Source: an uncultured Bacteroidota bacterium (GTDB taxonomy: Bacteria > Bacteroidota > Bacteroidia > Chitinophagales > Chitinophagaceae). From it: DNA of 35,983 bases. The position numbers were made by a program, and so were the translations under genes. Location of the stretch: positions 1 through 35,983 of the forward strand of contig CAIYTT010000053.1 in assembly GCA_903929195.1 (NCBI GenBank), written 5' to 3'. Positions within the stretch are counted from its first letter, which is position 1. Every line of letters starts with the position of its first letter. Under the pieces are notes generated by a model. That model saw only the letters and a list, made by a program, of their open reading frames with translations, was not told the DNA's origin and made no database searches. Positions 9,390 through 35,983 of the stretch are shown one piece after another.

Positions 9390-9467
9390 GGAGGTTGTAG
9401 CTCAGTTGGTTAGAGCATCAGATTGTGGTTCTGAGGGTCGAGGGTTCGAGCCCCTTTAGCCTCCCCA
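9390..9467 (+). tRNA. tRNA-His (anticodon GTG), with encoded CCA
   Basis: A full cloverleaf can be drawn: acceptor GAGGTTG (9391-9397) with TAGCCTC, D arm GCTC/GAGC, anticodon stem TCAGA/TCTGA around the loop TTGTGGT (anticodon GTG), and T arm GAGGG/CCCTT with loop TTCGAGC. The genome encodes the extra G(-1) at 9390 facing discriminator C73 at 9464, the identity element of tRNA-His. CCA follows at 9465-9467. It is flanked by its own promoter and a strong terminator, so it is transcribed alone. Confidence 0.97.
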
Positions 9468-9494
9468 TAACATTATTAAATTGTAAAGAATAAT

Positions 9495-9525
9495 AAAAAG
9501 TGCTTTTCGGAGCACTTTTTTATTA
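9495..9525 (+). terminator. Rho-independent terminator after tRNA-His
   Basis: AAAAAGTGCT (9495-9504) pairs perfectly with AGCACTTTTT (9511-9520) around the loop TTTCGG, and the stem runs into a T-rich tail. Confidence 0.85.
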
Positions 9526-18350: not shown

Positions 18351-18548
18351 TTTAGCTTTTTTAATTGTTAAAAATAAAATATAAAATAAACTTAAAGTTT
18401 AGCGATAAGAAGGTTTTGGTTGTAAATTTACAGATACTTTCACAATTCCAAAATTTTATTTAATCTAAATTTAACTTTGACGATATTTTGTGAAAAGTTT
18501 ATATGATTTTATTGTTAAATTTTATACAGTCAAATAATACTAACTTGT

Positions 18549-18552
18549 ATTT
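18549..18552. repeat. Target-site duplication, left (ATTT)
   Basis: ATTT here and ATTT at 20157-20160 directly abut the two ends of the insertion sequence, consistent with a 4-base duplication. Confidence 0.7.
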
Positions 18553-18566
18553 AGGGTCTGCTGAAA
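18553..18566 (+). repeat. IS terminal inverted repeat, left
   Basis: AGGGTCTGCTGAAA is the exact reverse complement of 20143-20156. Confidence 0.9.
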
Positions 18567-18584
18567 AAGTTCAGTTGGTTTTGA

Positions 18585-20078
18585 TTAAGGGATTGCCGGT
18601 TTGACATTGAGCAGCGTGGATAGCCTTGCTGAAAAAGTCAGCAACCATAAGCATAGGGCAATAAGTGCTTGCCCGGCCAATTTGACCAGGTTGAGCACCA
18701 TTATGATGGAGGCAATCCATGACTGGCTTGTTTGTTGAAGCCTTGCCTTTATGCGGTTTAAGCCGTATGCCGATTTAGCCTGTCCAAACTTGCCTTCTAT
18801 TGGGTTTCGCTCTCCCGGACTTACGTGTGCCTCCACTGCCTTTGGTCTGCCCAGCGGTTTAGCTCGTAGTCTTATTCCCAGCTCTTTGAGCTGCCTCCTG
18901 TTTTCCCTTGTACAGTAAATCTTATCTACCAACACTTCTGCCGGATACATTCCGAACCGCTTCTTAAACCGGTCAATAGTAGCCATTAACCGCGTACCCT
19001 CATTATATGCCTCCCAAGATAGCTCTTCGAGGAAAGAAAACCCATTCATAATACTCACTTCGATCTTTGCCCCGAACTCTACTTTGGCATTGGTTTTACC
19101 TCTTACTATTGGTCTTACATGCGGTTGGTGAATGCTTACTATCCGATGGTCCACCTTGTGTTTCTTTTCAATGAACATTTCCAGTTGCTGGTCATAGAAT
19201 GTTTGAATAACGAGCAGGTATTTGTATTGATGACGGTCAAGTGGAATAGATTTATACTCTTCGAGTAGCTTGTGGATATTCTTTATGTTGCGTCTGAGAT
19301 AGTTTAGCTGTCGCTTAATAGCTGTTCTCAACTCTTTCTTCGATTTGGATTTCTTCTGAGCTGTTTTCAAATAGATCTTATGGGCTACCCTGCGGTAGGT
19401 ACGAGGCTTGGCTATATGTCTTGTCGCACAAAACAAAAGATCTATCAGTTCTTCTGATTTCTCCCTCGCATCATTAAGCAGGTCCAGGTCTGTGGGATAC
19501 CTTATGTCCTGAGGACAGGCTGTAGCATCTACTATCAGCCTGCCTTCATTGGGGCGTTGTGTATCTGTAGAGGCGGCTGACACCTGTACGTCTTGTTGTG
19601 TGCTATTGTCATCACCTGTATCCTTATTCTGCTGCTGTCTCCCATCCGACAACCCCAATATTATCTCGTTGATCCTGTTGATTTGGTCAGCTCCTAACCT
19701 CTTTCGGAATTCAACAAATAACGATGGATCAAATGGCTCTTCATCGCTAAAGCTGCTGAAACCGATAAAATACTGCATGTACATATTCTCCTGTATCTGT
19801 AGAACCGTTTCCCGGTCACTCAAATCGCACATATGCTTGATAATAAGTGAGCCGATGGCCACACGCGGATTGATACCGTCAGCTCCTGTTCGGGTATTGT
19901 GCATCTGTGTCTGGTAAACATTTACCAAACCATCCCAGGGTATCTTGTGTGCTAATAACACCCAACGGTTCGCAGGGTTGAGTTTTCGAGCAAAAGGCGT
20001 CTCAAAGCCTGGCAGCGGAAGCTGGTGCTCGCTACTGTAGTGTTGCTTGGATGCACGGTTTCTGAAGGCCTTAGCCAT
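18585..20078 (-). CDS. IS5/IS1182-type DDE transposase
   Basis: The 497-residue transposase has an N-terminal DUF772-like DNA-binding region (RVAIGSLIIKHMCDLSDRET, then YMQYFIGFSSF, about 72-110). A low-complexity stretch follows at 145-175. The DDE catalytic core has D184 in LIVDATACPQD, D385 in VLVDKIYC and E429 in NPIEGKFGQAK. All three acidic residues are present and the frame is uninterrupted, so it is probably active. The start ATG (20078) is 64 bases inside the IS end. It mobilises the element at 18553-20156, and a second copy begins at 35848. Confidence 0.92.
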   Translation of the reverse strand: MAKAFRNRASKQHYSSEHQLPLPGFETPFARKLNPANRWVLLAHKIPWDGLVNVYQTQMHNTRTGADGINPRVAIGSLIIKHMCDLSDRETVLQIQENMYMQYFIGFSSFSDEEPFDPSLFVEFRKRLGADQINRINEIILGLSDGRQQQNKDTGDDNSTQQDVQVSAASTDTQRPNEGRLIVDATACPQDIRYPTDLDLLNDAREKSEELIDLLFCATRHIAKPRTYRRVAHKIYLKTAQKKSKSKKELRTAIKRQLNYLRRNIKNIHKLLEEYKSIPLDRHQYKYLLVIQTFYDQQLEMFIEKKHKVDHRIVSIHQPHVRPIVRGKTNAKVEFGAKIEVSIMNGFSFLEELSWEAYNEGTRLMATIDRFKKRFGMYPAEVLVDKIYCTRENRRQLKELGIRLRAKPLGRPKAVEAHVSPGERNPIEGKFGQAKSAYGLNRIKARLQQTSQSWIASIIMVLNLVKLAGQALIALCLWLLTFSARLSTLLNVKPAIP

Positions 20079-28369: not shown

Positions 28370-29329
28370 ATGATTAAAAGAATAATACCGGCTGCTTTAT
28401 TAGGTGCAGCTATCTTTGGAGCAAGCAGCTGCAAAAACGACAGTTTCAAGAAAGTGAACGGAGTTGAGTACATGATTATTAAAGAAGTAAAAGGTAAAAA
28501 ACCTGCTATGGGCGATGTAGTTGAAGTAAACTACAAATTAATTGCAGATTCTGTTGTTGCTGCAACCGGCAAAACAGAAACTTTTACAGTAATAGATACC
28601 AGAAAGCAAAATATGGGTAAGCCCGTACCTGTGCCTATTGATGACAAAAACTTTAAAGGTGATATTAGAGAAGTAATAAAATTACTTTCTCCGGGTGATA
28701 GCGTTCTTATTAATGTACCTATTGATACTTTAATGGTTGCCAACCCGGGTAAATTACCACCATGGATGAAAAAAGGACATAAAATAACGTTCCAAATGAC
28801 TATTGCTAACATTACAACAATGGAGCAATATCAAAAAGATATGCAGGCAAAACAAGAAGAAATGAGAGCTTCTATGCAAAAAGATATGCAAGCTAAAGCT
28901 GCAGAACAAACACCAATTGATGAAAAGATTTTGCAAGATTATTTTACAAAAAATAATTTGAAACCTTCTAAAACACCCGGTGGCGTATATTATATTATAC
29001 ATAAAGAAGGTACTGGTGCAACTATTAAACCCGGACAAACTGCAAGTATAAGATATACAGGTAAGACACTTGACGGTAAAATGTTTGATTCAAATGTTGA
29101 CCCATCAAAAGGACATACTGACGCATTTAGCTTCCCGGTGGGCGAAGCAAGAGTAATTCCGGGATGGGATGATGGTGTACAAGTAATGAAAAAAGGTACA
29201 AAAGCTACTTTATACATACCTTCTCCTTTGGCTTATGGCGAAAGAGGTGCAGGTGCAGATATTGCTCCCAATTCAATATTAATGTTTGATATGGAAGTAG
29301 TAAATGTAGAAGACAAGCCGGCAAAATAA
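28370..29329 (+). CDS. Exported FKBP-type prolyl isomerase lipoprotein, array member 1
   Basis: The 319-residue protein is a probable lipoprotein (GASSC, Cys21). About 28-150 form a degenerate FKBP-like domain (VNGVEYMIIKEVKGKKPAMG, GDSVLINVPID, PPWMKKGHKITF). A charged helical linker with Met/Gln/Lys repeats (about 152-185) and DEKILQDYFTKNNLKP lead to a canonical FKBP domain (about 205-315). That domain has IRYTGKTLDGKMFDSN, RVIPGWDDGVQVM, YIPSPLAYGERG and LMFDMEVV, which supply the usual Tyr, Phe-Asp, Val-Ile, Trp, Tyr and Phe of the active pocket. It would catalyse prolyl cis-trans isomerisation and assist folding in the periplasm or on the outer membrane. A strong terminator follows. Confidence 0.92.
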   Translation: MIKRIIPAALLGAAIFGASSCKNDSFKKVNGVEYMIIKEVKGKKPAMGDVVEVNYKLIADSVVAATGKTETFTVIDTRKQNMGKPVPVPIDDKNFKGDIREVIKLLSPGDSVLINVPIDTLMVANPGKLPPWMKKGHKITFQMTIANITTMEQYQKDMQAKQEEMRASMQKDMQAKAAEQTPIDEKILQDYFTKNNLKPSKTPGGVYYIIHKEGTGATIKPGQTASIRYTGKTLDGKMFDSNVDPSKGHTDAFSFPVGEARVIPGWDDGVQVMKKGTKATLYIPSPLAYGERGAGADIAPNSILMFDMEVVNVEDKPAK

Positions 29330-29334
29330 TTTTT

Positions 29335-29392
29335 TACTACTAAGAATTGGCTACTTTTATAAAAAAGTGCCATTTCTTAGTAGTATTATATT
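29335..29392 (+). terminator. Terminator after FKBP 1
   Basis: TACTACTAAGAA (29335-29346) pairs perfectly with TTCTTAGTAGTA (29374-29385). Inside, TGGC/GCCA and ACTTTT/AAAAGT extend the stem to about 22 pairs around an ATAA loop. A T-rich tail follows. Confidence 0.85.
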
Positions 29393-29432
29393 TTAATAAT
29401 ATTTATTTTTTAATCAAAAAAATAGTTCTTCT

Positions 29433-30416
29433 ATGTTTAAAAATCAAAAGATTGCAATTATTTGCCTTCTGTTTATTTGTTTTGCAACAACAATAAATGC
29501 ACAAGAAAAAAAGGCTACAAACAAGAACAAAGTAATTACAGAAACAAAACCTGTTTTTAAGAAACTGAACGGTGTTGAATATTGTATAGTAAAAAACATA
29601 AGCGGTAAAAAACCGGTTATTGGTGATATAGTAGAAGCTAATGTACTTGTAATTGCCGATACAATTGTTAAAGCTACTAAAAAAGCAGAAAAATTTGTAG
29701 TTGGTGATTCAAGAAAAGAAAATGGTGGTAAACCGGTGCCTATTAAAATGGATGAAAAAACATTTAAAGGCGACTTTAAAGAAGTTTTAAAACTTGTTTC
29801 TCCCGGCGATAGTGTTGTCATTAATGTATCGGTAGATACTTTAATGAAATCGTTCCCAAACCAGCCTATGCCACCACTTATGAAAAAAGGCAGAAAAATT
29901 ACTTACGAAATTTCTGTTGTTTCCATAAAACCATTAGAAGAATTCCAAAAAGAAATGCAAGCAAAACAAGCTGAAATGCAAAAGCAAGAACAAGCTAATG
30001 CAGCACAACAAAATGCTATAGATGAAAAAATATTACAAGATTATTTCGCAAAAAATAATTTGAAACCTTTAAAAACAGAAGCAGGTGTATATTATGTAAT
30101 ACATAGCGAAGGTGCCGGAGCAACAGTAGCAAAAGGACAAACTGCAAGTATTAATTATACAGGTAGAACACTTGACGGTAAAATGTTTGATTCAAATACC
30201 GACCCTTCAAAAGGGCATGTGGAACCGTTTAAATTTCCTGTAGGTGCCGGTAGAGTTATTAAAGGATGGGATGATGCCGTTTTAATTATGAAAAAAGGAA
30301 CCAAAGCAACCATTTATATACCTTCTTCTTTAGCTTATGGCTCAAGAGGTGCAGGTGCTGATATTGGTCCTAATCAGGTTTTAATGTTTGATATGGAAGT
30401 AATGGGAGTTGAATAA
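29433..30416 (+). CDS. Exported FKBP-type prolyl isomerase, array member 2
   Basis: The 327-residue protein is the closest paralogue of member 1, but its signal peptide ends INAQEKK without a lipobox Cys, so it should be soluble in the periplasm. A degenerate FKBP-like N-domain (LNGVEYCIVKNISGKKPVIG, PGDSVVINVSVD) is followed by a Gln/Lys-rich helix (FQKEMQAKQAEMQKQEQ) and DEKILQDYFAKNNLKP. The canonical C-terminal FKBP domain has INYTGRTLDGKMFDSN, RVIKGWDDAVLIM, SLAYGSRGAGADIGPNQV and MFDMEV. All pocket residues are retained. It has its own strong terminator. Confidence 0.92.
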   Translation: MFKNQKIAIICLLFICFATTINAQEKKATNKNKVITETKPVFKKLNGVEYCIVKNISGKKPVIGDIVEANVLVIADTIVKATKKAEKFVVGDSRKENGGKPVPIKMDEKTFKGDFKEVLKLVSPGDSVVINVSVDTLMKSFPNQPMPPLMKKGRKITYEISVVSIKPLEEFQKEMQAKQAEMQKQEQANAAQQNAIDEKILQDYFAKNNLKPLKTEAGVYYVIHSEGAGATVAKGQTASINYTGRTLDGKMFDSNTDPSKGHVEPFKFPVGAGRVIKGWDDAVLIMKKGTKATIYIPSSLAYGSRGAGADIGPNQVLMFDMEVMGVE

Positions 30417-30470
30417 AATCAATTTATTAGTTGCCAATTTTTTACTTTAGAAAGTTTAAATAAAGAATAT

Positions 30471-30512
30471 ATAAGCAGACCATATGTTAAAATATATGGT
30501 CTGCTTATTTTT
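30471..30512 (+). terminator. Terminator after FKBP 2
   Basis: A perfect 15-base-pair stem, ATAAGCAGACCATAT (30471-30485) with ATATGGTCTGCTTAT (30494-30508), has an 8-base loop and a T5 run. Confidence 0.92.
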
Positions 30513-30593
30513 AAGAAATCTATAAAGAATATAATTATTATTTTTGAAATCAATATTGCACTTATTACAAATACTTTATAACGGAATAAAACA

Positions 30594-31622
30594 ATGAAAA
30601 AGATACAATTTATTGCAATTACGGTCTTAATGTTACTTTCGGTAACATGTCAAGCATCCAGAAAAAATAAGAAAAGAGATGTGGATTCTACAAAACAACT
30701 TTCGCAAACAAGTGCAGTTGTAGCCGACACATTTACAACTTTTCCTGACGGATTGCAATATAAAATTATTAAACATGGTACAGGAACAAGAAAGCCCATT
30801 TTTACAGACCATGTTGAAATGAATATAAGCGTACAGGTAAAAGACAGTGTTATTTACGATTCTAGAAAAATGTACAATAATAAACCTGTGCCACAACAAA
30901 TAATGAAACCGAAAGGTAAGGGGGATATTGTAGAAGGACTAATGATGTTAGTAGTTGGGGATAGTGCTATTTTTAGATTTCCTGCCGATTCTATGAAAAA
31001 AAATGGTGGTTCATTGCCACCTTGGGCTAAAGAAGGTGAGATTGTAGAATACAAAATAGCCATTGTATCAATTATGAGCGAGGAAGAACTTAAAAAAGAT
31101 AAAGCAGCAAAAATTGCAGCTCAAAAAGAAATAGACGAAAAATTGTTACACGACTATTTTACAAAAAACAACATTACACCATTAAAAACACAGTCGGGAC
31201 TTTATTACACCATTAAACACGACGGTGAAGGTGCTACTGCACAAAAAGGAAATATTATTAGTGTTTTTTATACAGGTAAATTATTAAACGGTACTATTTT
31301 TGATACAAATCAAGATTCTACATTTCATCACCAAGACCCCATTTCTTTTGAAATAGGAAAAGGAAAAGTGATTAAAGGCTGGGACGAAGGTATGACATTA
31401 TTGAAAAAAGGCAGTATTGCAACATTATATATTCCGTCGGGTTTAGCTTATGGCCCACAAGACAAAGGCGGCCCAATACCACCTAACTCTGTTTTATTAT
31501 TTGATATTGAAGTAAAGGATATAAGAACACAGGCAGAATTAGATGAGTCCTTATTGCAAGAGTATTTTAAGAAAAATAATATTAAAACCCAAAAACAAGT
31601 TCCGGTTTATATTACTCTATAA
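30594..31622 (+). CDS. Exported FKBP-type prolyl isomerase, array member 3 (frameshifted at its 3' end)
   Basis: As it stands this encodes 342 residues: a signal peptide (about 1-21), a degenerate FKBP-like domain (about 45-160: PDGLQYKIIKHGTGTRKP, GDSAIFRFPADSM, PPWAKEGEIVEYKI), DEKLLHDYFTKNNITP, and a full FKBP domain (about 200-315: VFYTGKLLNGTIFDTN, KVIKGWDEGMTLL, IPSGLAYGPQ, LLFDIEV). It then enters another linker, DESLLQEYFKKNNIKTQ, and runs out of frame into KQVPVYITL and a stop. Shifting one base at the A5 run 31591-31595 restores KTSSGLYYSITKKGKG and joins the FKBP domain encoded at 31670-31966. The intact form would be a three-domain protein of about 457 residues. Confidence 0.88.
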   Translation: MKKIQFIAITVLMLLSVTCQASRKNKKRDVDSTKQLSQTSAVVADTFTTFPDGLQYKIIKHGTGTRKPIFTDHVEMNISVQVKDSVIYDSRKMYNNKPVPQQIMKPKGKGDIVEGLMMLVVGDSAIFRFPADSMKKNGGSLPPWAKEGEIVEYKIAIVSIMSEEELKKDKAAKIAAQKEIDEKLLHDYFTKNNITPLKTQSGLYYTIKHDGEGATAQKGNIISVFYTGKLLNGTIFDTNQDSTFHHQDPISFEIGKGKVIKGWDEGMTLLKKGSIATLYIPSGLAYGPQDKGGPIPPNSVLLFDIEVKDIRTQAELDESLLQEYFKKNNIKTQKQVPVYITL

Positions 31623-31669
31623 CTAAAAAAGGTAAAGGAGCTGTTGCTGCTACCGGTGATACCGTTTTT

Positions 31670-31966
31670 ATGAATTATATAGGTAAAACACTTAATGGTA
31701 ACGTATTTGATAAAAATGTTGATTCTGCATTTAATAATATTCGCCCGTTTAGCTTTGCTTTGGGTACAGGTAAGGTAATAAAAGGCTGGGACGAAGGCAT
31801 TGCATTATTAAATAAAGGCAGTAAAGCTACGTTTTATATTCCTTCTGCCTTGGCTTATGGGCCACAGGCACCATCGAGAGCAATAGGAGCCAATGCAGTA
31901 CTTTTATTTGATGTAGAATTAACAGATATAAAAAAGGCTAAGTTAATTCCGAATCAGGTAAAATAG
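31670..31966 (+). CDS. Second FKBP domain of array member 3, separated by a frameshift
   Basis: The 98-residue frame begins at an internal Met (MNYIGKTLNGNVFDKN) and contains KVIKGWDEGIALL, YIPSALAYGPQ and LLFDVELTDI, all canonical FKBP pocket motifs. In this frame homology extends upstream without a start codon to about 31596, encoding TSSGLYYSITKKGKGAVAAT. It is therefore the C-terminal half of the preceding gene, split by loss of one A, and not an independent gene. It has no signal peptide of its own, so a separately translated product would stay in the cytoplasm. Confidence 0.8.
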   Translation: MNYIGKTLNGNVFDKNVDSAFNNIRPFSFALGTGKVIKGWDEGIALLNKGSKATFYIPSALAYGPQAPSRAIGANAVLLFDVELTDIKKAKLIPNQVK

Positions 31967-32027
31967 GTTTTAATAAAAAGAGTTTGTGTAATATCACTAA
32001 AAAATAGTATTATTTTAAAGAGAATAA

Positions 32028-32945
32028 ATGAAACTGCATATAAAAATAATTAAAGTAATAACAGTTTTTTTCTGTTTGTTCTCTTTTTCCGTTTGTAATG
32101 TTATAGGTAAAGAGAATAATGGTGCAGGCAAGAAAATGAAGCATGGTTTTAGAAAATTACCAAGCGGAATTGAATATAAAATAATAAATGCTAAAGGCGG
32201 GCGTAAACCTATTGTTGATGACCATATAGAAATGCATATTCATGTGCATATTGGTGATAGTACCATTTTTGATTCTCGGAAAATGAATAATGATTTACCG
32301 GTACCTTTTAGGATAAGTGCTGCAAAATATGCAGGAGACCCCGTAGAAGGATTTATGCTAATGGGTGCAGGAGACAGTGCAGTAATAAAAATTCCGGTTG
32401 ATTCTATGATAAAGGCCGGAAATCAATTATTACCAAATATGCAGGCAGGTGATATGGTAGAATATAATGTTGTATTACTATCTGTACTATCAGACAAAGA
32501 AAAACATATTGACGACTCTATAAAAGCTGCAAAACAGACAATTATAGACGATAAATTACTTACTGATTATTTTAACCGAAATAAAATAAAACCTGTAAAA
32601 ACAATATCCGGTATGTATTATACCGTAATAAATGATGGAAGCGGATCAAAACCAGTTATTGGCGACACGGTATCTGTAAATTATACAGGCAAATTAATAA
32701 CAGGTAAAGTTTTTGATTCCAACACAGACCCTGAATTTCATCATGTGGAACCTTTTAAATTTGCCGTAGGTACGGGTAGTGTAATTAAAGGTTGGGACGA
32801 AGGGCTACAGCTTATGAAAACAGGGGCAAGAGTTATATTATACATACCCTCTAATTTAGCGTATGGCAGCCAAGACAGAAGCCCACAAATACCCGCAAAC
32901 TCTATAATGATATTTGATATTGATTTATTGAAAATTATAAAATAG
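32028..32945 (+). CDS. Exported FKBP-type prolyl isomerase, array member 4
   Basis: The 305-residue protein has an N-terminal hydrophobic export signal (about 8-25, VITVFFCLFSFSVCNVIG; a Cys is present but the lipobox is weak). A degenerate FKBP-like domain (about 40-155: PSGIEYKIINAKGGRKPIVD, GDSAVIKIPVDSM) is followed by DDKLLTDYFNRNKIKPVKT. The canonical FKBP domain (about 195-305) has VNYTGKLITGKVFDSN, SVIKGWDEGLQLM, YIPSNLAYGSQ and MIFDIDLL. It is closer to member 3 than to members 1 and 2. It begins 61 bases after the member 3 tail, with no terminator seen between them. Confidence 0.92.
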   Translation: MKLHIKIIKVITVFFCLFSFSVCNVIGKENNGAGKKMKHGFRKLPSGIEYKIINAKGGRKPIVDDHIEMHIHVHIGDSTIFDSRKMNNDLPVPFRISAAKYAGDPVEGFMLMGAGDSAVIKIPVDSMIKAGNQLLPNMQAGDMVEYNVVLLSVLSDKEKHIDDSIKAAKQTIIDDKLLTDYFNRNKIKPVKTISGMYYTVINDGSGSKPVIGDTVSVNYTGKLITGKVFDSNTDPEFHHVEPFKFAVGTGSVIKGWDEGLQLMKTGARVILYIPSNLAYGSQDRSPQIPANSIMIFDIDLLKIIK

Positions 32946-33369: not shown

Positions 33370-33594
33370 ATGACAACTATTCAACTACATCTGCCAGACG
33401 ACTTAGCAAGTAAGGCTGTTAGAATTTCGGGTAACATTGAAACGTTGATTATTGATTTGTTGCGTACAAAAATAAACGAGTTAGATAAACCTGTTACTTT
33501 AGCTGATGAGTACCGCCTTGCAGGGATTGAAAATAAATCTTTAATTACAGGATTTCAATCTATTGATATGGAGGGTTGGGATGAGGAATATTAA
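33370..33594 (+). CDS. MazE-type / DUF2281-like antitoxin
   Basis: The 74-residue protein opens with an antitoxin-like DNA-binding segment (TIQLHLPDDLASKAVRISGN). A short helix follows (ETLIIDLLRTKINELDKP), and the acidic tail MEGWDEEY is typical of small Bacteroidota antitoxins that sit before PemK/MazF toxins. The toxin start at 33581 overlaps its last 14 bases, the usual translationally coupled arrangement. The antitoxin is intact while its toxin is cut short, so it could act as a solitary antitoxin. Confidence 0.72.
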   Translation: MTTIQLHLPDDLASKAVRISGNIETLIIDLLRTKINELDKPVTLADEYRLAGIENKSLITGFQSIDMEGWDEEY

Positions 33595-33685
33595 TAGAGG
33601 AGAAATTTGGCTGGCAAACCTTGACCCAAATGGCTTTAACTTATATTTACCCTCAAAAATATTTCAATTCTTGATGGTTTTTTAA
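33581..33685 (+). pseudogene. Truncated PemK/MazF-type toxin
   Basis: This 34-codon frame reads MRNINRGEIWLANLDPNGFN and then unrelated residues to TAA. The first 17 residues match the start of PemK/MazF endoribonuclease toxins (xxRGEIWLxxLDPT), including the N-terminal strand. The conserved RPxxIIS segment and the rest of the fold are gone. The break lies near 33630, where family similarity ends abruptly, suggesting a deletion or insertion event. No toxin activity is expected. Confidence 0.7.
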
Positions 33686-33705: not shown

Positions 33706-33713
33706 TACCTTTG
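33706..33713 (+). promoter_or_regulatory. Candidate -7 box of the UDG-fold/deiminase-fold unit
   Basis: TACCTTTG matches TAnnTTTG and ends 30 bases before the ATG at 33744. A small hairpin, TGGGT (33717-33721) with ACCCA (33731-33735), would lie in the 5' leader. No good -33 TTG is seen. Confidence 0.45.
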
Positions 33714-33743
33714 TACTGGGTCTGAAAAATACCCAAAAATATC

Positions 33744-34121
33744 ATGCCTAAATTTACAATTAGAGAATTAATTAAACAAAATGAGAATATAATTCAGTAT
33801 TATAAAAATGGATTAATATTATGGAACGAAATTAAAAATAGTCCGGAATTTGAAAATATTGAGAGCTTAATCAAGAAACTGGAAGAAATGCAGTCAAGAT
33901 TTGAATCTGAATGTGGAGGCAAATATCTTGGAAGAGAAATTATGGCATTTGTTGGAATTGGTCAATTTTCAAATGAATTAATTGGTTTTGATATAGATTA
34001 TGAAGATGCCATAAAAGTGAAAAATGCAATTGAACAAAGTTATTGTAGTATTGAGGTGAAATGGTATATAGAAAATGCCATTAAACATTTTGGATTAGAT
34101 GAAAATAAAAATAATGAATAG
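33744..34121 (+). CDS. Uncharacterised small protein, first gene of the three-gene unit
   Basis: I do not recognise this 125-residue protein. It is soluble, with no signal peptide. It appears mostly helical: TIRELIKQNENIIQYYKNGL, then ESLIKKLEEMQSRFESECGG, a possible short coiled coil. A compact middle part, LGREIMAFVGIGQFSNELIG, and a charged tail follow. Base composition matches its two downstream neighbours. The next gene starts 17 bases beyond its stop, so co-transcription is likely. The small size and first position would suit a regulatory or adaptor role, but this is inference only. Confidence 0.65.
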   Translation: MPKFTIRELIKQNENIIQYYKNGLILWNEIKNSPEFENIESLIKKLEEMQSRFESECGGKYLGREIMAFVGIGQFSNELIGFDIDYEDAIKVKNAIEQSYCSIEVKWYIENAIKHFGLDENKNNE

Positions 34122-34138
34122 TGTATAAAAAAACTATT

Positions 34139-34687
34139 ATGATAAGTATCAAACATAAATTTCTGACCCACAAAATACATCCGGAAACAGAAACTTTAAT
34201 TATTGGAACTTTCAATCCTAATGCCGAAAAAAATCAAGCTGATTTTTTCTATGGAAGAGGAAGAAATTTTTTATGGCGATTATTACCTGTAGCTTATGAA
34301 GATGCTGACTTAACAGGCAAATCAAGAGAAGAAAAAATTGATTTTATTCATAAAAGAAAAATTGATTTTATTGACATAATTTCAGAAGTAGAAATAGATA
34401 ATGGTGAGGAGGCTAATTATAAAGATAACTATCTTGATAGTCGGGTTAGTGAATGGCGTGATGTAAAAAATGAAATTGAGAACTTAAAAAAGATTAAAAG
34501 GGTTTGCATTACAAGAAAAACATTTTCAGATATTCCAAAAATGAAGGTGAGAATTGATGAAATTCAAAAATACTGCGAAGAAAGACACGGTTCTATTGAC
34601 TTCAAATATTTGATAACACCAGCAAGGTATTATTCTACAGAAAAACAAAATGTGTGGACGAAATTTCTTAAAAATGATAACAGATAA
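34139..34687 (+). CDS. Uracil-DNA glycosylase superfamily-like protein
   Basis: Counting from ATG 34139 (MISIKHKFLTHKIHPETETL), the protein has 182 residues. G23-TFNPN in LIIGTFNPNAE takes the place of the UDG motif-1 loop (GxxPG or GINPG in relatives). FFYGRGRNFLWRLLP (36-50) matches the FYGxxxNxFWxxL segment of mismatch-specific and deoxyinosine-type UDGs. FIDIISEVEID (77-87) and LITPARYYS (158-166) occupy the places of later motifs, the last resembling the LPSTSPA catalytic loop but without a clear His. A DNA or nucleic-acid base-excision role is plausible; activity is unproven. A GTG at 34121 would add six residues. Its end overlaps the next gene. Confidence 0.68.
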   Translation: MISIKHKFLTHKIHPETETLIIGTFNPNAEKNQADFFYGRGRNFLWRLLPVAYEDADLTGKSREEKIDFIHKRKIDFIDIISEVEIDNGEEANYKDNYLDSRVSEWRDVKNEIENLKKIKRVCITRKTFSDIPKMKVRIDEIQKYCEERHGSIDFKYLITPARYYSTEKQNVWTKFLKNDNR

Positions 34688-35537
34688 AGATACTAATTTT
34701 CTTTATTTAGCTGATTATATTTTGAAAAATAAATACGATGATTATAATGATTTTTCAAAACAGTTTCAGGAATTGCTAATAAAATGCAATATAAAATTTG
34801 ATTGGCTTCGCGGTACAAAAGATGTCTGGGCGGTTGATTATATGCCAATACAAATTGAAACTGATAAATTTATCCAGTTTGATTATAAGCCTGATTATTT
34901 ATATACAAAAAAAGAACGAAATTCAATTTCTGACGTTGATTGTATTTGTAAAAGTATAGGGTTAAAAACTATCAAGTCCGATATTATTCTTGATGGGGGT
35001 AATGTTGTAAGAACAACTGATAAAGTAATAATGTGTGATAAAATAATTTTTGCTAACCAAAAAAATTATTCAAGGAAAGAATTAATCAAAAAATTACATG
35101 AACTATTTCAAGTTGACAAACTGTTTTTTATTCCTCAAGACCCACATGATGAAATAGGACATGCAGATGGTATGGTACGTTTTATTAATGAAAATAAAAT
35201 AATAGTTAATGATTATACTTCCGAACAGGAAGCAAAAAACAAACAGTTTGTAAGAGCATTTTACATTGCTTTAGACAATACAGGCATTGAATATGCTACT
35301 TTACCGTATAACCCTTACAACAATCAAAAAATGTGGCACGCAAATGGAATTTATATTAATTATCTACAAATGAAAGACGTAATTATTCTGCCCACCTTTG
35401 GAATAAATGAGGATGAAAAGTCAAAAGAAATAATTTCTAAGCTGTTCCCAAATTATAGAATTGAAACTATTAACAGCAATGAAATTGCATTTGGTGGTGG
35501 TGTTCTAAACTGCATTACTTGGAATATTAAGAAATAA
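34674..35537 (+). CDS. Agmatine deiminase / peptidylarginine deiminase family protein
   Basis: The 287-residue protein shows the guanidino-group-modifying (PAD/agmatine deiminase) pattern: KDVWAVDYMPIQ (49-60), D107-GGNVV, H163-x-D165 in DEIGHADGMVRF, WHANGIYINY, and the nucleophile C280 in GGGVLNCITW. Relatives hydrolyse the guanidinium of agmatine or of C-terminal arginine to give ammonia and a ureido product. The first motif is altered: the usual DxWxRDxGP reads D-VWAVDYMP, with Val for Arg and Met for Gly, so substrate choice may differ. It is shorter than typical agmatine deiminases (about 340-370). The start is ATG 34674, overlapping the UDG-like gene by 14 bases; ATG 34650 is also possible. 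Confidence 0.82.
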   Translation: MITDKDTNFLYLADYILKNKYDDYNDFSKQFQELLIKCNIKFDWLRGTKDVWAVDYMPIQIETDKFIQFDYKPDYLYTKKERNSISDVDCICKSIGLKTIKSDIILDGGNVVRTTDKVIMCDKIIFANQKNYSRKELIKKLHELFQVDKLFFIPQDPHDEIGHADGMVRFINENKIIVNDYTSEQEAKNKQFVRAFYIALDNTGIEYATLPYNPYNNQKMWHANGIYINYLQMKDVIILPTFGINEDEKSKEIISKLFPNYRIETINSNEIAFGGGVLNCITWNIKK

Positions 35538-35847
35538 TTATGTATTTTTTAATCTATAATTAAGATGATTCATCCCCCCCTAGTTCTTCCGGATTTTCCG
35601 CAGGAAATCTGGAAGTGAGAATGAAGCTCCTTCTTCGAAGGCAATTACTTGACAAAGCTAAAAGAAAGCGATATGTTTTTAGAACTAATTTATAAACTTA
35701 GCTGTCAAAATGCCGAATCTTTATTAAATTTCATAGCTTAACAACCTTTTCATTTAACTACAATACCCTGAATATATTAAGGAAAGGGATAATTCTTTCT
35801 TTTTCAAACCCCGTGGGAACATCAATGAAGAACAAGACTGAATAATT
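35538..35847. other. Non-coding stretch with palindromes before IS copy 2
   Basis: It contains an imperfect inverted repeat, CTTCCGGATTTTCC (35586-35599) with GGAAATCTGGAAG, and a small CCTTC/GAAGG hairpin close behind. A short frame ends in DMFLELIYKLSCQNAESLL and a stop near 35740, perhaps the tail of a lost gene, but I do not recognise it. Confidence 0.4.
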
Positions 35848-35983
35848 AGGGTCTGCTGAAAAAGTTCAGTTGGTTTTGATTAAGGGATTGCCGGTTTGAC
35901 ATTGAGCAGCGTGGATAGCCTTGCTGAAAAAGTCAGCAACCATAAGCATAGGGCAATAAGTGCTTGCCCGGCCAATTTGACCA
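35848..35983 (-). mobile_element. Left end of a second copy of the same insertion sequence (cut by window edge)
   Basis: From the terminal AGGGTCTGCTGAAA onward, all 136 bases equal those at 18553-18688. Orientation is the same as copy 1. The flanking bases to the left are AATT, different from copy 1's ATTT, so this was a separate insertion. Confidence 0.93.
35880..35983 (-). CDS. IS5/IS1182-type transposase, C-terminal fragment (continues outside the window)
   Basis: This is the last 34 codons of the transposase, identical to the C-terminus of the copy at 18585-20078 (WLLTFSARLSTLLNVKPAIP, then stop). The remainder lies beyond the right edge. Confidence 0.88.
   Translation of the reverse strand, partial: VKLAGQALIALCLWLLTFSARLSTLLNVKPAIP

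Follow-up and report, generated by a model that had tools for sequence, protein, structure and literature searches.

A recurrent Bacteroidota gene pair joins a constant PAD-fold protein to exchangeable, predicted DNA-attacking partners

We analysed a 35,983-nucleotide stretch of an uncultured Bacteroidota bacterium (assembly GCA_903929195.1, contig CAIYTT010000053.1, positions 1 to 35,983; this whole stretch is called the window below). Near its end lies a compact unit of three plus-strand genes that encodes a short protein (ORF1), a protein of the uracil-DNA glycosylase (UDG) superfamily and a protein with the fold of peptidylarginine deiminases (PAD) and agmatine deiminases. The features of the unit are as follows:

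33706-33713, plus strand: TACCTTTG, a putative promoter read from the sequence, fitting the Bacteroidota TAnnTTTG box
33744-34121, plus strand: ORF1, an open frame of 125 amino acids (aa), accessory and not core
34139-34687, plus strand: UDG-superfamily protein, 182 aa, ATG start, the exchangeable partner
34674-35537, plus strand: PAD/agmatine-deiminase-fold protein, 287 aa, ATG start, the constant gene

TAnnTTTG is the consensus of the Bacteroidota promoter box; no clear -33 element was seen by eye near TACCTTTG. The listed UDG frame begins at GTG 34121, and we preferred ATG 34139 because it matches the starts of close relatives; the listed PAD frame begins 8 codons before ATG 34674. Counted from these ATGs, ORF1 and the UDG gene are separated by 17 bases, the UDG and PAD genes overlap by 14 bases, and the two core genes together take up about 1.4 kb. 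A preliminary description of this DNA had given three plus-strand genes with this gap and this overlap behind a TAnnTTTG box, and the open frames and the box at 33706-33713 bear it out; the motifs that it named, GTFNPN and FFYGRGRNFLWRLL in the UDG-like protein and DGGN, HAD and a Cys in the PAD-fold protein, were all found, and its two fold assignments agree with the family and structure matches given below. None of the three genes of the window unit encodes a methyltransferase, so this unit does not qualify as a Type II restriction-modification system, and by eye it holds no ATPase gene. The models of PADLOC-DB 2.0.0 returned no family for UDG, PAD or ORF1 at E <=1.

The window PAD belongs to PF04371 (PAD_porph), which it matches with E 2.6e-29 and 102.9 bits against a cut-off of 25. 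Its active-site residues were aligned with those of 6b10 and 1xkn, and W52, D55, D107, N110, H163, D165, and C280 are invariant across 34 aligned PAD relatives. We take C280 to be the catalytic Cys, H163 and D165 the His-x-Asp pair, and D55 and D107 two more acidic residues that bind the guanidino group. Because the active-site residues are invariant in the 34 relatives, the guanidino-hydrolase machinery looks intact, and the protein is predicted to be a Cys hydrolase. A profile of the 34 relatives matches 6b10 at E 3e-23 and two agmatine deiminases, 2ewo (E 8e-18) and 2jer (E 6e-17). Identity with a housekeeping agmatine deiminase is unsupported, as the window PAD reaches 71.6 bits in the equivalog model TIGR03380, far from the cut-off of 381.8. 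The PF04371 genes of the host genome are the two copies of the unit (see below) and no other, which therefore leaves some room for a metabolic role.

An AlphaFold2 model of the window UDG (predicted local distance difference test score, pLDDT, 91.8) is closest to 2l3f, a putative uracil DNA glycosylase (Foldseek E 6e-7; VIA Z 13.3 over 156 residues at 3.4 A), followed by Mug (Z 12.2) and then TDG and SMUG1. All 50 matches listed for this model are entries of the UDG superfamily. A profile of 15 UDG sequences, in which N43 and W46 are invariant, likewise matches 2l3f at E 9.5e-18. The nearest curated model is TIGR04274 (DNA-deoxyinosine glycosylase), matched at E 9.4e-7, and PF03167 gave no row up to E 1 for the window UDG. 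Relatives from other loci come closer to the curated families: the UDG partner of locus L053 scores 41.3 bits against 24.3 in PF03167 and passes TIGR04274 with 94.5 against 80 bits, and that of L018 falls just short of the latter with 77.9 (L and G numbers are our labels for loci and genomes).

A scan of GTDB contigs returned 341 PAD relatives, and the locus counts below refer to the best 80 of these 341. Near-duplicates were kept among the 80: L019 and L020 are identical, and L023, L025, and L056, as well as L091 and L092, are near-identical by tree. A partner lies within about 700 bp of the PAD in 58 of the 80 loci, and it belongs to one of three classes: like alkyladenine-DNA glycosylase (AAG) in 30, a PacI-like HNH protein in 17 and a UDG in 11. 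In 53 loci the partner is directly upstream on the same strand, with a 4-base overlap in 30 of them. The other five comprise a fusion (L040), a divergent HNH gene (L078), two UDG genes downstream (L070 and, on the opposite strand, L050), and an HNH gene one gene further up (L031).

The pairing was also found in an even draw of 395 genomes of the phylum. The PAD subfamily (E <=1e-30) is present in 7 of these genomes at 8 loci, and a glycosylase adjoins the PAD in 7 of the 8: UDG in G000 (twice), G194, and G296, and an AAG-like protein in G099, G076, and G359. The remaining PAD, in G002, has no adjacent glycosylase, and a Vsr endonuclease gene (99.6 bits against 27) lies one gene off. The host genome of the window carries a second UDG and PAD pair on contig C154 (UDG segment 54% and PAD 50% identical), preceded by a different first gene. 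Two Flammeovirga plasmids have PAD with HNH downstream, and viral contigs L106, L107, L109, and L117 have AAG and PAD. These counts show the window genes, as far as sequence comparison reaches, to form a two-gene module in which the PAD is constant and the partner is a predicted UDG, AAG, or PacI-like HNH protein; going by the same comparison, such a unit is carried by many Bacteroidota.

The preliminary description had named rare adjacency of homologues as the mark of chance clustering; starting from the PAD, pairing is common (a partner in 58 of 80 loci). Its proposal of a cassette joining a base-handling protein to an enzyme of guanidino-hydrolase fold survives as a recurrent, tightly coupled unit, and needs correcting in that UDG is only one of at least three interchangeable partners. 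Its third gene does not belong to the core. ORF1 matched no Pfam family over cut-off, and neither NCBIfam nor PADLOC had a row for it at E <=1; a weak match to RE_Bsp6I (E 0.0093, 16.1 of 25 bits) is below cut-off. We regard ORF1 as a real gene because a 62% identical protein occupies the same position in L018. Such a relative lies within 3 kb of the PAD in one of the 80 loci, L018 itself, and the core therefore consists of two genes, UDG and PAD; the three-gene core that had been proposed was rejected on this count, and other loci carry different accessory genes.

We infer the activities of the three partner classes from fold and profile. The HNH profile (14 sequences) matches R.PacI at E 1.6e-12, and R114 and the zinc Cys pairs (C79, C82, C131, C134) are invariant in the 14 sequences, with Y81 nearly so, which identifies the class as PacI-like. 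The nearly invariant Tyr and the invariant Arg fit the unusual active site of PacI. The general base of PacI is a Tyr, according to the accessible part of PMC4081073. In the AAG class, a model of the L069 partner (pLDDT 85.8) gave four Foldseek matches at E <=0.003, all of them human AAG, and superposes on human AAG with Z 12.4 over 164 residues, the next fold following at 4.9; the class thus has an AAG fold in its model. Sequence searches were silent here, with no PDB sequence match up to E 10 for the class and no Pfam family over cut-off for L069, L085, or L023. E62 and Y64 of L069 (E-x-Y) are invariant in 22 AAG-class sequences, and we take them to resemble the E125/Y127 pair of human AAG.

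To follow the partner along the PAD lineage we used a quick tree of 83 PADs, made up of the 80 together with both copies from the host genome and the PAD of G296. The tree requires 32 changes of four labels against a shuffled mean of 44, and among the 61 PADs with a partner there are 21 partner changes. A frame shift within the PAD range of L085 puts part of its row out of frame; with L085 removed the count is still 21, among 60. The starred branches alone, with 27 of the 79 inner branches left open, force at least 6 (AAG), 7 (HNH), and 8 (UDG) changes. Close PADs accordingly stand beside unlike partners: L053 (UDG) and L057 (HNH), in the same starred clade of four, have PADs that are 91% identical, and the starred pairs L022 (UDG) and L024 (HNH), L075 (AAG) and L082 (HNH), and L070 (UDG, downstream) and L071 (HNH) have PADs that are 85%, 81%, and 69% identical, respectively. 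L022 and L024 resemble each other at the DNA level immediately upstream of the partner (118-173 with 9467-9520), differ across the partner gene, and are similar again once the PAD gene begins. The window and L018 share 67% identity in PAD and 62% in ORF1 against 22% in UDG, and their UDG genes have no DNA similarity at E <=1e-3. These comparisons show the partner, as read from gene content, to be exchanged as a cassette while the PAD stays.

The two halves of the module also occur as single proteins. L040 encodes an HNH-PAD fusion of 412 aa, and L150 (MT836602.1, 1-8516) an AAG-PAD fusion of 514 aa, whose PAD part matches PF04371 with 88.8 bits and whose AAG part was assigned by eye. Fifteen bases before the latter gene lies a 471-aa frame with a weak match, below cut-off, to the ADP-ribosylglycohydrolase family PF03747. 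An ADP-ribosyl glycohydrolase is likewise encoded at Brig1 and Brig3 loci (accessible parts of PMC11078745 and PMC13160076); as a link to such loci the L150 frame was rejected, with 15.2 of 26.2 bits (E 0.018) in PF03747 and no PADLOC match.

The accessory genes at other loci include an X231-like domain, UzuA, a domain we call part3, and a small downstream protein. In C154 the X231-like domain precedes the UDG; in L023, L025, L029, L056, and L084 it is part of a fusion with AAG. By eye, the N-terminal segment fused to the L036 HNH protein recurs before UzuA in L041. Part3 is found with HNH, UDG, and AAG loci, and in L090 it is joined to the C-terminus of the PAD. Judged from these gene arrangements, accessory parts are shuffled among loci. 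Downstream of the PAD in four HNH loci (L031, L047, L060, and L072) there is a protein of 92-103 aa, the four being related by eye.

Some further loci depart from the usual pair. The PADs of L083, L095, and L096 have an N-terminal extension of about 140 aa, likely with a membrane helix first (by eye), and no recognised partner. On viral contigs L111 (5012-6004) and L118 (4220-5224) a protein of about 330 aa is encoded upstream of the PAD; that of L111 matches the dimethylargininase family PF19420 (33.6 bits against 23), and its L118 counterpart has no Pfam match and is similar by eye. Two pentein-type genes can thus stand together in one virus. In the AAG and PAD unit of viral contig L106 (4806-6001), the gene of a 192-aa DUF6642 protein (53.3 bits against 27) overlaps the AAG start; a CHAT protease label for this protein was discarded at 13.8 of 24 bits, below cut-off. 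In L088, about 3 kb separates HNH from PAD, and transposase-like genes (by eye) lie in this gap, as though an insertion sequence (IS) had split the pair.

Outside the unit, the window holds the following flanking features:

33370-33594, plus strand: intact antitoxin-like frame, 74 aa, named by eye
33581-33685, plus strand: truncated toxin-like frame, stopping after 34 codons, named by eye
35843-35983: terminal 141 bases of an IS at the contig end, 99.3% identical to window 18548-18688

The broken toxin-antitoxin locus of the preliminary description thus keeps its broken toxin-like frame and, by eye, an intact antitoxin-like one, the latter without a Pfam match. The IS that it placed on the other side is there: window 18548-18688 forms the terminal part of an internal IS copy, and since the last 141 bases match it, the contig ends in an IS. 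The unit has a GC content of 27.7% against 33.3% for window 1-33300, and 3 of 316 overlapping stretches of the same size are equally low. Further upstream (28370-32945) runs a series of related genes for FKBP-type peptidyl-prolyl isomerases; the frame at 30594-31622 matches FKBP_C with 95.7 bits, those at 28370, 29433, 31670, and 32028 were assigned by eye, and the FKBP-like frame at 31622-31966 appears broken.

We next considered the setting of the module. In L041 (7734-9984) a UzuA (Uzume) protein (E 1e-90) with an extra N-terminal part is encoded one base before the UDG gene that precedes the PAD, and in L150 the BREX gene BrxC (E 1.7e-70) lies about 6 kb from the AAG-PAD fusion. For a broader view we compared a neighbour set, the 124 nearest of 566 candidate genes from 54 loci within 1.5 kb, with a control of 124 of 169 genes from 20 position-picked regions; these come from 11 genomes of the phylum, and a UDG or PAD match is present in some of them as well. 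The defence-model matches listed for the neighbours include Type I REase, MADS, GajB, and ThsA; those listed for the control are three caspase-like, two PbeA, one Type I REase, one DpdF-like, and a methyltransferase. The neighbours matched 160 PADLOC families and the control 51, families and not genes being counted, and we treat this excess as suggestive, not as a statistic. In L159 (6461-11882, G363) a PacI-like HNH gene overlaps the end of RdrB by 4 bases, and RdrB stands behind RdrA, giving a RADAR-like locus with the HNH gene in third place (RdrA E 7e-22, RdrB E 3.8e-35). RdrB has no match in the window's genome at E <=1e-8, so that the RdrA plus RdrB pair that marks RADAR is absent there at this threshold. 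Because of the neighbourhoods, the swapping, and the fusions, we think that the module is probably a system against phages or mobile DNA.

How such a system might act can be sketched from the folds. Human AAG excises hypoxanthine, and the N-C(NH2)-N portion of guanine resembles a guanidine. The PAD-fold enzyme might deiminate a nucleobase in DNA or in the nucleotide pool and so create an aberrant base: guanine, through its guanidine-like part, would give xanthine, or adenine would give hypoxanthine. The partner would then excise this base or cut at it, and replicating foreign DNA would be broken up. If all the cutters recognised one product base, it would be clear why enzymes so unlike can replace each other next to the same PAD. 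The L053 UDG, which passes the deoxyinosine glycosylase model TIGR04274, and the HNH relative that overlaps the adenosine deaminase gene RdrB in the RADAR-like locus are in line with this proposal. Family 6 UDGs are hypoxanthine DNA glycosylases, and RADAR turns dATP into dITP during infection, so that a deaminated nucleotide as a weapon has a precedent (accessible parts of PMC5387724 and PMC9994260). An anti-phage module that writes and then cuts is, taken as a whole statement, a tentative proposal that we would not call probable. Somewhat less likely still is its most specific form, a new class of immunity in which a pentein-fold nucleobase deiminase writes an aberrant base and an exchangeable reader, UDG or hypoxanthine-DNA glycosylase (HDG), AAG, or PacI-like, destroys the DNA there.

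Several observations weigh against a defence module that works in this way. We know of no PAD-fold enzyme that acts on a nucleobase, the known substrates being arginine-like. The window UDG itself misses the TIGR04274 cut-off, with 29.1 against 80 bits, and PacI is sequence-specific (accessible part of PMC4081073). No recognised partner stands by 22 of the 80 PADs, and only 3 of these 22 have less than 800 bases of upstream DNA. On the tree, HNH labels cluster no better than in shuffles (196 of 500 are as low), and 27 of the 79 inner branches are open. The excess of defence neighbours is coarse, being counted by family and not by gene, and the control has matches too. None of five other RdrB loci has a UDG, AAG, HNH, or PAD neighbour, so that the link between RADAR and HNH is a single locus, and for these two reasons we give the RADAR parallel little weight.

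Viewed from the partners, moreover, the two genes are loosely coupled. When HNH relatives were searched for in their own right (draws of 395 and 201 genomes, G363 being in both), no PAD lay nearby in any of the four genomes concerned (G033, G363, G421, and G477), in three of three viral loci, which are alike, or in two of four plasmids; overall, 2 of 11 stand beside a PAD. AAG-like genes lack a PAD in three of six genomes and in the one plasmid match. Matches to the window UDG in the 395 genomes have a PAD beside them in 4 of 11 cases and none in 7 of 11; of these seven, six are weak (E >1e-8), at least one is false by eye (L014), and L009 alone is closely related. HNH and AAG relatives without a PAD imply cutters able to act alone, which weighs the writing-and-cutting mechanism down and raises the alternative that follows. 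These two stand level in our estimate, each a possibility well short of probable, and both stand ahead of a protective role for the PAD.

In that alternative, which we hold as tentatively, the partner attacks hypermodified phage bases in the manner of Brig1 or Type IV enzymes, with the PAD in an accessory role, acting on a guanidino metabolite of the phage or on a guanidino or amidino group that such a base bears; the variety of partners would then mirror that of phage modifications. Removal of modified phage bases by UDG-superfamily glycosylases is described for Brig1 and Brig3 in the accessible parts of PMC11078745 and PMC13160076. Swapping fits changing targets, and the PAD-less HNH and AAG relatives fit cutters that stand alone. 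The PAD keeps the residues that bind the guanidino group in known relatives, and viral contig L111 has its DDAH-like gene (PF19420, 33.6 against 23 bits) before the PAD. Yet one constant PAD would need to suit many modified bases, and no guanidino-modified phage base turned up, although no search was aimed at such bases.

We think it unlikely that the PAD instead protects the host, either restraining a toxic DNA-cutter as a citrullinating enzymatic antitoxin or serving as a modification enzyme in place of a methyltransferase. PacI is described as solitary, without a methyltransferase (accessible part of PMC3488263), the window unit has none by eye, and the cutter is tightly coupled to the PAD; against this, 22 of 80 PADs lack a recognised partner, partners also occur without PAD, and PADs that are 91% identical beside unrelated cutters are hard to square with a specific antitoxin. 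A pair for DNA repair or nucleotide clean-up without any role in defence would be more unlikely again. UDG/HDG and AAG folds are those of repair enzymes, and the second copy in the host genome adjoins genes of the NADH dehydrogenase operon (by eye), but the distribution is patchy (7 of 395 genomes), and swapping, a PacI-like partner, copies on plasmids and viral contigs, and UzuA, BrxC, and Vsr nearby are unlike housekeeping. That three accessory genes came together by chance in an AT-rich island, as the low GC, the IS end, and the broken toxin-antitoxin-like pair alongside might suggest, is highly improbable: recurrent pairing in other genomes, short overlaps, and fusions refute it for UDG and PAD in our view, and it may hold for ORF1.

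If the module serves defence, as we think probable, it would be the first such system known to us to be built around a PAD-fold enzyme, and a clear case of two glycosylase folds and a nuclease as interchangeable parts of one module. It also offers a starting point in the search for new chemistry, in which a pentein enzyme would act on bases or would target a guanidino mark carried by phage DNA. The small size of the unit, about 1.4 kb for two genes, makes these predictions directly testable.

The preliminary description knew of no described system of this composition, and our literature search found no description either, subscription journals lying largely outside its reach. The word "deiminase" is absent from the main text of the Brig1 (PMC11078745), Brig3 (PMC13160076), and DefensePredictor papers, and "HNH" and "glycosylase" from that of the RADAR paper (PMC9994260), as far as the accessible parts of these sources go. 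The nearest relatives each share one side of the module. With agmatine deiminase and the Porphyromonas-type PAD, the window PAD has in common a PF04371 score above cut-off and the active-site residues; it differs in length (287 aa against 330-438 aa in solved relatives) and in the DNA-attacking enzyme that adjoins the PAD in most loci read. Family 6 UDG/hypoxanthine-DNA glycosylase is close through 2l3f, both the closest structure and a profile match, and through the L053 partner above the TIGR04274 cut-off, whereas the window UDG remains under it (29 of 80 bits). Human AAG (MPG) shares the fold of the commonest partner (Z 12.4) and the invariant E-x-Y, yet no PDB sequence matched up to E 10 and no Pfam family passed cut-off for three members.

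The HNH partners resemble R.PacI (3ldy, 3m7k) in their profile (E 1.6e-12), the nearly invariant Tyr, and the invariant Arg. They differ from it in that some have an N-terminal helix-turn-helix-like part (L024, a weak Pfam match below cut-off), and PacI is described as a solitary endonuclease, for which the reported explanation is that its site is absent from the host genome (accessible part of PMC3488263), whereas the relatives here often stand beside a PAD; this contrast may bear on how PacI-like nucleases live without a methyltransferase. RADAR (RdrA-RdrB, accessible part of PMC9994260) also places a deaminase at the centre, and one RADAR-like locus has the same HNH family as its third gene, but RdrB is an adenosine deaminase that works with the ATPase RdrA, and the window unit holds no ATPase gene by eye. 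Brig1 and Brig3 (PMC11078745 and PMC13160076, in their accessible parts) are UDG-superfamily glycosylases near defence genes that use base excision as defence; from their description the present module is set apart by its constant PAD and by the exchange of the glycosylase for an AAG fold or a nuclease at other loci. Together these comparisons indicate that the composition, a PAD with a swappable DNA-attacking partner, is categorically new as judged from gene content, with its function predicted.

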